NCBI GenBank assembly: GCA_016928495.1
Contig: JAFGKQ010000008.1
Coordinates: 1 to 16,544 of the forward strand
DNA: 16,544 nt
Reading direction: 5' to 3'
From: Candidatus Fermentibacterales bacterium
GTDB lineage: Bacteria; Fermentibacterota; Fermentibacteria; Fermentibacterales; JAFGKQ01
Position 1 is the first letter of the stretch. Each line of letters starts with the position of its first letter. This document shows positions 2,040 to 5,275 of the stretch, in pieces. Both the position numbers and the translations under genes were made by a program. A model generated the notes under the pieces. The model had not been told where the DNA came from, did no database searches, and saw only the letters and a list, made by a program, of their open reading frames with translations.

Positions 2040-2437
2040 CCCTGAGCCGGGTAGACGCCTCCAGGCTCTTCTTCAACCGGATGATGATGCTGGAGAGGCG
2101 CCAGGTCGAGAGCCTGCCGTCGGCGTTTCCGGATGGCGAGCCACTGGCGACCGCGCTCCGAGGCAATCCGGACGCGGAGTGGTCCCTGTGCCATGCCTCG
2201 GCCTCCAGCGCTGCCTGGCCGCACCGGGTCACGCGACACGATGGATGGGCCGTCCTGTGTCCGGGCAGCAGCGACACGGACATGAGGCGCGTTCCGTGCT
2301 GCTCTCGAGGGGCTAAGACGGGAGCGTTCTCGAGGAGCCCACGGACGGAAGGAAGCGCGAGTACCGGAGGATCCTCCCGTCATGATCGGCGAGGGCTCCC
2401 GAGAGGGGAGGGGAGTTGGGCGGCTTCTTCGGAATAG
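2033..2437 (+). CDS. Doubtful open frame, possibly the N-terminal remnant of a decayed gene
   Basis: An open frame of 134 codons fills most of the 376-base gap before the PurF-like gene. The first 85 or so codons (to about 2285) have the strong GC3 and codon pattern of neighbouring genes, and a GGGAG lies 8 bases before the GTG at 2033 (an ATG at 2081 is an alternative). The visible product includes GWAVLCPGSSDTDM near residue 70-83, which vaguely recalls the N-terminal region of some GNAT acetyltransferases. After about 2285 the composition turns Ser/Arg-rich and looks non-coding. In the next frame a short SVLLSRG stretch ends in TAA at 2314. This fits a frameshifted, truncated gene. It overlaps the start of the minus-strand WDGCGC gene by 7 bases and the PurF-like gene by 22. 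Function is not assigned. Confidence 0.3.
   Translation: MSSLSRVDASRLFFNRMMMLERRQVESLPSAFPDGEPLATALRGNPDAEWSLCHASASSAAWPHRVTRHDGWAVLCPGSSDTDMRRVPCCSRGAKTGAFSRSPRTEGSASTGGSSRHDRRGLPRGEGSWAASSE
2366..2377. repeat. 12-base perfect palindrome upstream of the PurF-like gene
   Basis: GGAGGATCCTCC reads the same on both strands. It lies 38 bases before the TTG start of the PurF-like gene. It could be an operator or a small hairpin containing an SD-like sequence, or it may be chance in a GC-rich gap. The rest of 2040-2415 shows no clear promoter or terminator to me. Confidence 0.35.
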
Positions 2438-3831
2438 CCGGCAGGCCGGGCGAGGACTGCACCACGGACCTGTTCTACGGGACGGACTACCATTCCCACC
2501 TGGGCACCATGAGGGGCGGCCTGGCGGCAAGCAACGGCAAGCAGCTCCGCAGGTACATCCACGACATCACCAACGCCCAGTTCCGCTCGAAGCTCGGGCC
2601 CGACCTCCCTCAGCTCTCGGGACACTGCGGCATCGGCGTCATCAGCGACCTCGACGACCAGCCTCTGCTCATCGGATCCCATCTGGGCACCTTCGCGGTC
2701 GTGACCGTCGGGAGGATATCCAACATCGACGAGATCGTTGCCCAGGCACTGGGGCAGAGAAGAGCCCACTTCTCGGAAATGAGCGGAGGGATGATCAACC
2801 CGACCGAGCTCGTCGGGATGATCATCAGCAGGGAGGAGAGCTTCCTCGAGGGGATCCGGAGGGTGCTGGAGTCGGTCGAAGGCTCCTGCTCGTTGCTGGT
2901 TCTGACGACGCAAGGCATCTACGCGGCCAGGGACAGGCTGGGAAGGACCCCGGTCATCCTCGGCACTCGGGAGGATGCCACCGCGGCAGCCCTGGAAACG
3001 AGCGCCTTCCCAAACCTGGGCTTCGAGACGAGCCACTGCCTGGGACCGGGCGAGGTGGTCCTCCTCCACCACGACGGCTTCGAGACCATCTCCCCCCCGG
3101 GCGAGTCCATGAGCATCTGTGCCTTCCTCTGGGTCTACTATGGTTTCCCGGCATCCCACTACGAGGGTATCAACGTGGAGGATGCCCGTAACAGGTCGGG
3201 AGCGTTCCTGGCCCGCAGGGACAGCGTGCGTGCCGACATGGTCGCCGGGATCCCGGACTCGGGAACCGGCCACGCTCTGGGATACGCGACCGAGTCGGGC
3301 CTGCCCTACAGGCGGCCCTTCGTCAAGTACACGCCCACCTGGCCCAGGAGCTTCATGCCTCAGGACCAGGGAGTGAGGGAGCTGGTCGCCAGGATGAAGC
3401 TGATACCGATCCCCGAGCTGATAAGGGGAAGGAAGCTGCTGTTCTGCGAGGACTCCATAGTCCGCGGGACGCAGTTGAGGGACACCATACGCCGGGTGTT
3501 CGAATCGGGGGCCGCGGAGGTCCACATGAGGCCGGCCTGCCCCCCATTGCTTCATGGTTGCCCATTCCTCAACTTCTCCAGGTCCTCCTCCGAGCTGGAT
3601 CTGGCGGGCAGGCGTGCCGTCTCGAGGCTGGAGGGCAGCGCGATCGAGGTCCCGCCCGCATACCGCGATCCGGACAGCGATGGCTTCCGCGCTCTGGTCG
3701 AAGAGGTCAGGAAGGAGCTGGGACTCACTTCGCTGATGTACCAGAGGCTCGATGACCTCATCTCTGCCATAGGGATGCCGGAGGAGAAGCTCTGTACCTA
3801 CTGCTGGACCGGGAGATCCGGGCCGGCCTGA
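2416..3831 (+). CDS. PurF-like amidophosphoribosyltransferase lacking the catalytic N-terminal Cys
   Basis: 471 residues from TTG 2416, with GGGGAGGGGAG just upstream. Class II glutamine amidotransferase plus type I phosphoribosyltransferase architecture: Ntn-like domain about 1-225, PRTase about 235-430. The PRPP loop is LLFCEDSIVRGTQL at 341-354. Cysteines C235, C382, C460 and C463 match the four Fe-S ligands of B. subtilis-type PurF. The N-terminus is MGGFFGIAG, where canonical PurF has MCGI, so the glutaminase nucleophile Cys1 is Gly. The RGQD motif is also replaced (MRGGLAASN). The same MGGFFG start, YGTDYHSHLGT, FLWVYYGFP and KYTPTWPRSF occur, as I recall, in a Bacteroidetes-type PurF paralog, so this is a family trait and not a local mutation. 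It cannot hydrolyse glutamine by the normal route; it may use ammonia, take it from a partner, or do something else. It is the only plus-strand gene, with no other purine genes beside it, and its 3' end overlaps the HD-GYP gene by 34 bases. Confidence 0.88.
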   Translation: MGGFFGIAGRPGEDCTTDLFYGTDYHSHLGTMRGGLAASNGKQLRRYIHDITNAQFRSKLGPDLPQLSGHCGIGVISDLDDQPLLIGSHLGTFAVVTVGRISNIDEIVAQALGQRRAHFSEMSGGMINPTELVGMIISREESFLEGIRRVLESVEGSCSLLVLTTQGIYAARDRLGRTPVILGTREDATAAALETSAFPNLGFETSHCLGPGEVVLLHHDGFETISPPGESMSICAFLWVYYGFPASHYEGINVEDARNRSGAFLARRDSVRADMVAGIPDSGTGHALGYATESGLPYRRPFVKYTPTWPRSFMPQDQGVRELVARMKLIPIPELIRGRKLLFCEDSIVRGTQLRDTIRRVFESGAAEVHMRPACPPLLHGCPFLNFSRSSSELDLAGRRAVSRLEGSAIEVPPAYRDPDSDGFRALVEEVRKELGLTSLMYQRLDDLISAIGMPEEKLCTYCWTGRSGPA

Positions 3832-4970
3832 GGATCAATGCCGGGAGAGCGCCGTCCGGGCAGGTCCGCCGCGGAGATGGCCCCCTCCTCCACGAGGTGC
3901 CTTCCCAGTGCCAGCACCGGGTCTGCGTCGAAGCTGGTCCCTATGCCCTCGACCAGGATGCGATAGGCTGCCCCGGGCTCGAGAGGCGAGCGATAGTGCC
4001 GCTCCGAGGTGAGGGCCTCATAGACGTCGGCAACCGCGATGATCCTCCCGCCGATCGAGATCTGGTCCAGGACCAGCCCTTCGGGATAGCCATCCCCCGA
4101 CGCTCTCTCGTGGTGCTGGGTGGCGTAGAGGGGAACCAGTCTGAGGCCTTCCTCGAAATCTATCCTGGACAGGATATTGTGAGTGTACTCGACGTGCTTC
4201 TTGATGATGGTGTACTCCTCGGGGGTCAGCCTCTCGGGGCCAGGCTTCCTCAGGACGCTGTCGGGTATGCCGATCTTGCCATAGTCATGCAGAAGAGCGG
4301 CGTACTTGATGGTCTCCCGCTCGGAGCCGGGAAGGCCGAGCTCCTCCGCGATCGCCACGGCATAGCGCATCACGTTCTCGCTGTGGCCGGCGGTGAGGGG
4401 ATCCCTGGACTCGATGGACTCCGCGAGGGCGTCGATGAGGCTGTCGAACATCCTCTTGCGGCTCTCGTAGAGCTGGACGTTCTCTATCGATATGGCCGCC
4501 TCGTTCGCTATGGCCTCCAGGAATTCGGCATCCTGGTCGTCGAACTCGCCACGGAGCTTGTTGACGACCTGGAACGATCCGAGCGTGCGGCCGTCAGGGT
4601 TGACTATCGGAACGGTCAGGGCGCTCCTGGTCCGGAACCCGGTCTTCTGGTCTATCGCGGGGTTGAACCTCGTGTCCTCCATGACATCGGGGATGAGCAG
4701 CGTCTCCCCGCTCCTGAAGACGAAGCCCGCCATGCCGGTCCCGACACCGATCCGGATCTGGTCCTTCTCGCCCTCCGCGACTATCGACCATAGCTCGTCA
4801 GTGTCGGGATCATGAAGGAAGACCGTCGACCTCTCGGCGTTGATGACGCTGCTGGTCTCCCTGGCCAGGAGTCTCAGCAGGGAGTGCAGGTCCCTCGTCT
4901 GGTTGATCTCCCGCAGTATCCTCAGCAGAGACCTCAGCTTCTTCAGCTCCTCCCGGAGCGAGGAGTCCAT
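3798..4970 (-). CDS. GAF-HD-GYP cyclic-di-nucleotide phosphodiesterase
   Basis: 390 residues from ATG 4970, chosen because GAGGGA lies 9 bases upstream and because a longer start would run into the upstream YggU gene. Order: N-terminal helix/coiled coil about 1-40, GAF sensor about 26-168, a linking helix, HD-GYP about 175-370. HD-GYP residues seen: H196 (AGHSENV), H228-D229 with K232 (LLHDYGKIG), H259, HHERASGDGYP at 286-296, D314 (ADVYEALTS). This is the full metal-binding and GYP set, so an active c-di-GMP (or cGAMP) hydrolase is expected, cytosolic and controlled by a small ligand or signal bound by GAF. No receiver or membrane domain. Last gene of a tight run after M29 peptidase, Trm112 and YggU (17 bases after YggU). 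Its 3' end overlaps the convergent PurF-like gene. Confidence 0.93.
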   Translation of the reverse strand: MDSSLREELKKLRSLLRILREINQTRDLHSLLRLLARETSSVINAERSTVFLHDPDTDELWSIVAEGEKDQIRIGVGTGMAGFVFRSGETLLIPDVMEDTRFNPAIDQKTGFRTRSALTVPIVNPDGRTLGSFQVVNKLRGEFDDQDAEFLEAIANEAAISIENVQLYESRKRMFDSLIDALAESIESRDPLTAGHSENVMRYAVAIAEELGLPGSERETIKYAALLHDYGKIGIPDSVLRKPGPERLTPEEYTIIKKHVEYTHNILSRIDFEEGLRLVPLYATQHHERASGDGYPEGLVLDQISIGGRIIAVADVYEALTSERHYRSPLEPGAAYRILVEGIGTSFDADPVLALGRHLVEEGAISAADLPGRRSPGIDPQAGPDLPVQQ

Positions 4971-4987
4971 TCCCGGTCTTCCCTCGT

Positions 4988-5275
4988 TCAGGATGAGATA
5001 CCCTCCGCTTCCCCGGTGCCCGGCAGCCATTCGGGCCTGTGTGCGGGAGCTCTCACGAGCAGGGTCTTCCTGCTGGATCTGAGCCCCGAGACGATCTCCA
5101 CATCGTTCCTGCCTACGCCGAACTCGCGGGCGATGTACTCGGTCAGCTCGTGGTTGGCCCTTCCCCCGGCCGGGGCGGACCTGAGCGCTATCCTGGGCGA
5201 GCCGTCCGCCATCAGCCCGCAGAAGCCGGTCCTGGAAGAGCGCGGGCTGACCTTCACCCTGAGCCTGAGATCCAC
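4988..5275 (-). CDS. YggU/DUF167 family protein
   Basis: 95 residues from GTG 5275. The family is small, conserved and of unknown biochemical role. The motif APAGGRANHEL at about 34-44 corresponds to the family's PPxxGKAN signature. It is preceded by the strand LRLRVKVSPRSSRTGF and followed by SGLRSSRKTLLV (family GxxSRxK). Length matches the usual 80-100 residues. The final 20 or so residues are a nonconserved tail. The SD is weak (GAGGA about 13 bases upstream), and the gene starts 10 bases after the Trm112 stop, so it is probably translated from the shared operon message. The GAF-HD-GYP gene follows 17 bases later. Confidence 0.88.
   Translation of the reverse strand: MDLRLRVKVSPRSSRTGFCGLMADGSPRIALRSAPAGGRANHELTEYIAREFGVGRNDVEIVSGLRSSRKTLLVRAPAHRPEWLPGTGEAEGISS

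Follow-up and report, generated by a model that had tools for sequence, protein, structure and literature searches.

A PurF-like protein family without the glutaminase site: probably PRPP amidotransferases that form phosphoribosylamine from free ammonia

PurF is regarded as the glutamine-dependent gateway to purines. Salmonella purF mutants require purines (PMC3485032). In E. coli PurF, replacing the nucleophile Cys1 by Ala or Ser abolishes glutamine use while ammonia use is kept, according to Mei and Zalkin (cited in PMC3261824). Here we describe PurF paralogues that have lost the glutaminase site altogether; a literature search among open-access papers found no published description of this subfamily. 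Taken together, the evidence makes it probable that they are PRPP amidotransferases forming 5-phosphoribosylamine (PRA), most likely from free ammonia, i.e., a PurF isozyme and in several lineages its replacement.

The gene that led to the family lies in the window, i.e., the whole analysed stretch of 16,544 nucleotides of Candidatus Fermentibacterales DNA. It encodes 471 aa from a TTG start, with the N-terminus M-G-G-F-F-G, and is organised as follows.

2402..2414, forward strand: purine-rich stretch agaggggagggga, putatively ribosome-binding (sequence inspection)
2416..3831, forward strand: PurF-like protein without glutaminase site (open reading frame and alignment to 1ao0)
2416..3099, forward strand: N-terminal Ntn-fold domain, residues 1-228, glutaminase site lost (GATase_7, 31.1 bits; GlmS glutaminase domain, Z ~26)
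3100..3831, forward strand: phosphoribosyltransferase domain and C-terminal part (alignment to PurF structures)

An alternative upstream start that would supply a Cys after the Met, which the first-pass annotation had considered, is ruled out: the ten in-frame codons between the preceding stop and the TTG (SARAPERGGE) hold neither a start codon nor a Cys. With regard to profiles, the protein reaches 172.9 bits for TIGR01134 (NCBIfam purF equivalog, EC 2.4.2.14), which is below the 350-bit cut-off, and its sole Pfam match is GATase_7 (cut-off 25). Pribosyltran from Pfam gives no match at E 1; the PRPP loop and the fold are present, and a xanthine phosphoribosyltransferase aligns structurally.

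The residue comparison is based on an alignment of about 80 relatives and 41 canonical PurFs. Glutamine-site residues are given in what we take to be E. coli PurF numbering, carried over by motif. Since phmmer pairs residue 3 of the window protein with residue 2 of mature B. subtilis PurF (residues 3-394 vs. 2-393 of 1ao0, E 1.6e-47), Gly2 occupies the Cys1 position. The relevant sites are listed below.

2419..2421, forward strand: Gly2 at the position of the PurF nucleophile Cys1 (relatives 72 Gly, 7 Ser, 0 Cys; Cys in all aligned canonical PurFs)
2479..2520, forward strand: family motif GTDYHSHLGTMRGG, residues 22-35, where canonical PurF has the glutamine-binding HRGQE segment (alignment)
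2641..2646, forward strand: deletion site of the canonical glutamine loop R73-Y-x-T76, between residues 76 and 77 (gap in all paralogues)
2707..2709, forward strand: Val98 at PurF Asn101, the oxyanion residue (99% of paralogues have Val, all canonical PurFs Asn)
3118..3120, forward strand: Cys235, Fe-S ligand position (invariant in both groups)
3325..3363, forward strand: altered flexible loop KYTPTWPRSFMPQ, canonical KNRYVGRTFIQP (family-specific, nearly invariant; low-confidence model region)
3448..3474, forward strand: PRPP-binding loop EDSIVRGTQ (DSIVRGT 90-100% in both groups, 100% in paralogues)
3559..3561, forward strand: Cys382, Fe-S ligand position (invariant in both groups)
3793..3795, forward strand: Cys460, Fe-S ligand position (paralogue-invariant)
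3802..3804, forward strand: Cys463, Fe-S ligand position (paralogue-invariant)

Gly2 is not a chance replacement, because the relatives carry Gly or Ser and never Cys, i.e., the catalytic N-terminal Cys is found in 0/79 aligned family members. The first-pass annotation had proposed the loss of Cys1 and a change of the RGQD motif alongside a retained PRPP loop and four retained Fe-S cysteines, and both the alignment to 1ao0 and the relatives bear this out (e.g., LGTM is found where canonical PurFs have RGQE). It understated the extent of the change: among the relatives, R26 is replaced by Leu and Q28 by Thr, the R73-T76 loop, whose residues are at least 98% conserved in canonical PurF, is deleted, N101 has become Val, and D127 is lost. 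On the other hand, the four cysteines of the B. subtilis type do not vary among the relatives and are (nearly) invariant in canonical PurF, and the protein presumably carries an Fe-S cluster.

New conservation has arisen as well. D24, Y25, H26, S27, L29, T31, R33, F56, R57, K59, S77 and D78 are (nearly) invariant in the relatives only, as is the flexible loop KYTPTW-RSFMP, and the N-domain conservation of the family is centred on the new invariants GTDYHSHLGT-RGG. Within the GTDYHSHLGTMRGG motif, residues 24, 25, 27-30 and 35 are invariant while 26, 31 and 33 exceed 90% (alignment A3). Mean pairwise identity of the N-domain is 0.48 in the family compared to 0.44 in canonical PurF, which rules out a decaying pseudogene; for the phosphoribosyltransferase domain the respective values are 0.53 and 0.52. 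An AlphaFold2 model (76 family sequences) reaches a mean pLDDT of 89.3 and a pTM of 0.89, with low confidence in the flexible loop region, and the best solved structural match of this predicted model is B. subtilis PurF (1ao0_A, Z 41.7, rmsd 2.5, 428 residues).

A scan of genome contigs yielded at least 591 related loci, 80 of which were kept for the family analysis. These stem from Lentisphaerae, Planctomycetes, Aminicenantes, Acidobacteria, Spirochaetes, Desulfobacterales, Clostridia, Bacteroidales, Anaerolineae, Lokiarchaeia and others, and the named relatives include two 'Candidatus Aegiribacteria'. The phylogeny that had been suggested for MGGFFG-type PurF places all 91 family sequences in a single clade (support 0.92, stem 1.72), separate from canonical PurF and from the long Bacteroidetes-type PurF. 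The first-pass annotation had assigned the MGGFFG N-terminus to a Bacteroidetes-type subfamily, which is too narrow given relatives in many anaerobic phyla. The window protein is as close to Lentisphaerales and Phycisphaerae copies (L034, L035; 66-67%) as to those of its own phylum (63-66%), which suggests that the window gene may have been horizontally transferred.

The assumption that the window's genome has no other purF is false. Its assembly (81% complete) holds, on contig C58, a canonical, Cys1-bearing purF (C58:2472-3821, locus L001, 419 bits), whose product starts with 'MAPREHCGLCG', i.e., with the Cys after a short propeptide, and has intact RGQE, R73 and N101 motifs; purD is also present. 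Genomes of the same phylum that carry the paralogue likewise show a canonical PurF match. For a genome without a second purF, it had been proposed that purine synthesis rests on ammonia or an external glutaminase, which fits the family but not the window genome. For a genome with one, as found here, the proposal had been a distinct enzyme whose acceptor would be unknown; this conclusion is not favoured since orthologues from Clostridia stand alone.

The following counts for the 50-genome set and the two orders were read from tables by score band. All but about 6 of 50 genomes chosen as carriers also hold canonical or long PurF, or pieces thereof. Within the Clostridia order around genome G082, the paralogue is found in 20/113 genomes, and canonical purF is missing in 8/20 carriers vs. 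7/93 non-carriers (Fisher p 7e-4, phylogeny ignored). Among these purF-less genomes, purM is present in 6/8 carriers vs. 1/7 non-carriers, the single exception being cut at a contig edge. The order around Oligosphaera (Lentisphaerae-type) provides about 12/38 carriers without any other PurF, with purD in 12/12 and purM in 12/12 (11 over the cut-off).

Six Clostridia genomes keep purM-purN-purH-purD without purF, five of them also purE-purB, and in all six the paralogue is the only near-full-length PurF-type match. One contig each of G082, G238, G240, G242 and G222 shows purE-purB-(purC)-purM-purN-purH-purD with purF absent, while in G166 purC is directly followed by purM with no purF between. 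In the sister genomes G081, G239, G234 and G158, which have both genes, purF occupies the corresponding operon site. Four of the six genomes form one clade; in a tree of six concatenated Pur proteins, purF-less genomes branch at three distinct points between genomes that have both genes, which implies at least three separate purF losses in this order. Most or all of the paralogue-only genomes are draft assemblies from metagenomes, of unstated completeness, and the replacement claim rests on the contiguous operons.

Paralogue-only cases that rested on fragments were discarded, e.g., G072, which carries a short PurF-like piece. The operon argument fails in the G074 family, where a member with both genes likewise has no purF at the operon site. 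G222, which was kept on its operon evidence, also contains short PurF-like pieces on a different contig (G222:C57, L203:4379-4618 and 1737-1892), which match, in reversed order, TIGR01134 positions 68-141 and 1-51 and are possibly pseudogene fragments.

Since a purC remnant lies in the purF-less gap of G082 (L154:7750-8013) and G238 (L180:7385-7615), purC and purF were probably lost together in these two genomes. A divergent purC (~120 bits to TIGR00081) is encoded elsewhere in G082 (C222), G238 (C26), G240 (C68) and G234 (C72), the last having the two types of each of purC and purF. It seems that alternative versions have taken the place of two enzymes encoded in one operon, PurC and PurF.

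Because Clostridia orthologues stand alone beside operons that lack purF and keep purM, purN, purH and purD, the family most likely still makes PRA; the retention of these four genes means that PRA is required. As purines are required by purF mutants of Salmonella (PMC3485032), a loss of purF needs a replacement, and side reactions are unlikely to suffice. With its conserved PRPP site, the paralogue is the best candidate for this synthesis. We infer PRA formation from the loss of purF from otherwise retained purine operons. Glutamine use by the Ntn mechanism is impossible, because even the sole-copy members start with GG(L/V/F)FG. Ammonia is the simplest donor given that E. coli PurF Cys1 mutants, as cited in PMC3261824, keep their ammonia activity, and we infer it to be the nitrogen source. 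The paralogue, unable to hydrolyse glutamine by the PurF mechanism, would bind PRPP in the conserved phosphoribosyltransferase site, where direct attack of free ammonia would yield PRA to feed PurD. It would be an ammonia-type isozyme, which usually coexists with the glutamine-dependent PurF and would have replaced the latter in several lineages. For the wider reading, i.e., a deep and widespread ammonia-dependent PurF of anaerobic bacteria and Lokiarchaeia, whose rebuilt N-terminal pocket does not handle glutamine and which repeatedly displaced canonical PurF, we see an even chance.

Two observations from the alignment may speak against plain ammonia use, namely the new invariant N-domain motif, which would be unnecessary if only ammonia were used, and the alteration of what we take to be the ammonia-channel residues of canonical PurF (E. 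coli Y74 deleted, Y329 replaced by Thr, I335 by Met). They would also fit an alternative in which PRA is made but its nitrogen is supplied by a partner glutaminase or by another small amine bound in the rebuilt N-domain pocket, where the new invariant polar residues D24, H26, S27, T31, R33, R57, K59, S77 and D78 partly replace the glutamine site. Gene neighbourhoods offer this alternative one supporting case, i.e., a Clostridia clade (L206, L207, L208) in which the paralogue is directly preceded by the genes of a polar amino-acid ABC transporter (binding protein, permease, ATPase). Across the 80 loci, however, the paralogue is mostly solitary, and we found no conserved neighbour and no candidate glutaminase partner, such that we regard the alternative as unlikely, if the strongest of the competitors.

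Neighbours were named by sequence inspection, with additional support for purF, purD, guaA and carB. In L209 and L211, the paralogue is followed by a binding-protein-like gene. In line with a role in purine synthesis, a purD gene adjoins the paralogue in a Lentisphaeria genome, and guaA lies upstream in three deltaproteobacterial genomes. In the window itself, a GAF and HD-GYP-type protein (3798-5030, reverse strand) is convergent with the paralogue; its relatives are found near four other copies, possibly by chance.

The usual coexistence with canonical PurF could also point to a regulatory pseudo-enzyme that associates with the canonical enzyme and tunes it. The two genes stand in tandem in an Anaerolineae genome and are adjacent in Lokiarchaeia, in one case together with purL. 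Full conservation of the PRPP loop and of the catalytic-domain residues argues against a pseudo-enzyme, as does the persistence of the paralogue where purF is gone, and we give this explanation little credit. Slightly less still is due to the idea of an independent transferase, which would pass phosphoribosyl to some unknown acceptor unrelated to purine synthesis. The long stem branch would suit it, as would the flexible loop and N-domain peculiar to the family, but it leaves unexplained why canonical purF was lost, mainly in carriers, from retained purine operons. Finally, it is highly improbable that purF-less genomes obtain PRA non-enzymatically or by side reactions with the paralogue being irrelevant, since the PurF-independent PRA formation known in Salmonella relieves the thiamine requirement while PurF-less strains still need purines (PMC3485032), and since purF-less non-carriers mostly lack purM, too.

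If ammonia-dependent PRA formation holds true, there are whole organisms whose purine synthesis begins with no glutamine-dependent PRPP amidotransferase at all. Homology-based naming likely labels family members as amidophosphoribosyltransferase, and a second, glutaminase-less form of PurF would change the pathway annotation of hundreds of genomes. It would also be an example of Ntn domain repurposing and a clean system for studying ammonia use and channelling. The purF-less genomes make the replacement question directly testable by complementation.

Compared to known systems, the window protein shares with B. subtilis-type PurF (1ao0, 1gph) the whole fold, the domain order, the PRPP loop and the four Fe-S cysteines. 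It differs by the absence of Cys1, R26, the R73-T76 loop, N101 and D127 and by another flexible loop, is about 30% identical, and scores under the TIGR01134 cut-off. The long PurF (~600 aa) of Bacteroidetes and Lentisphaerae is likewise a PurF relative with a PRPP loop and co-occurs with the family in the same genomes, but it retains the Cys (KHECG) and forms a separate clade. Some Lentisphaerae and Bacteroidales (L212, L213, L216, L218) have this long PurF with a KHECG-type start instead of the B. subtilis type, and these copies score far below the TIGR01134 cut-off.

Class II amidotransferase folds whose N-domain no longer hydrolyses glutamine are known from beta-lactam synthetase (1m1z) and carbapenam synthetase (1q15), both of which are fold matches to the model of the window protein. 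These are AsnB-derived synthetases and, unlike the window protein, have no phosphoribosyltransferase domain. As an analogy only, AsnA and AsnB are two isozymes of one step that differ in their nitrogen source; their folds are unrelated, whereas here the candidate ammonia-type enzyme derives from the glutamine-type family.
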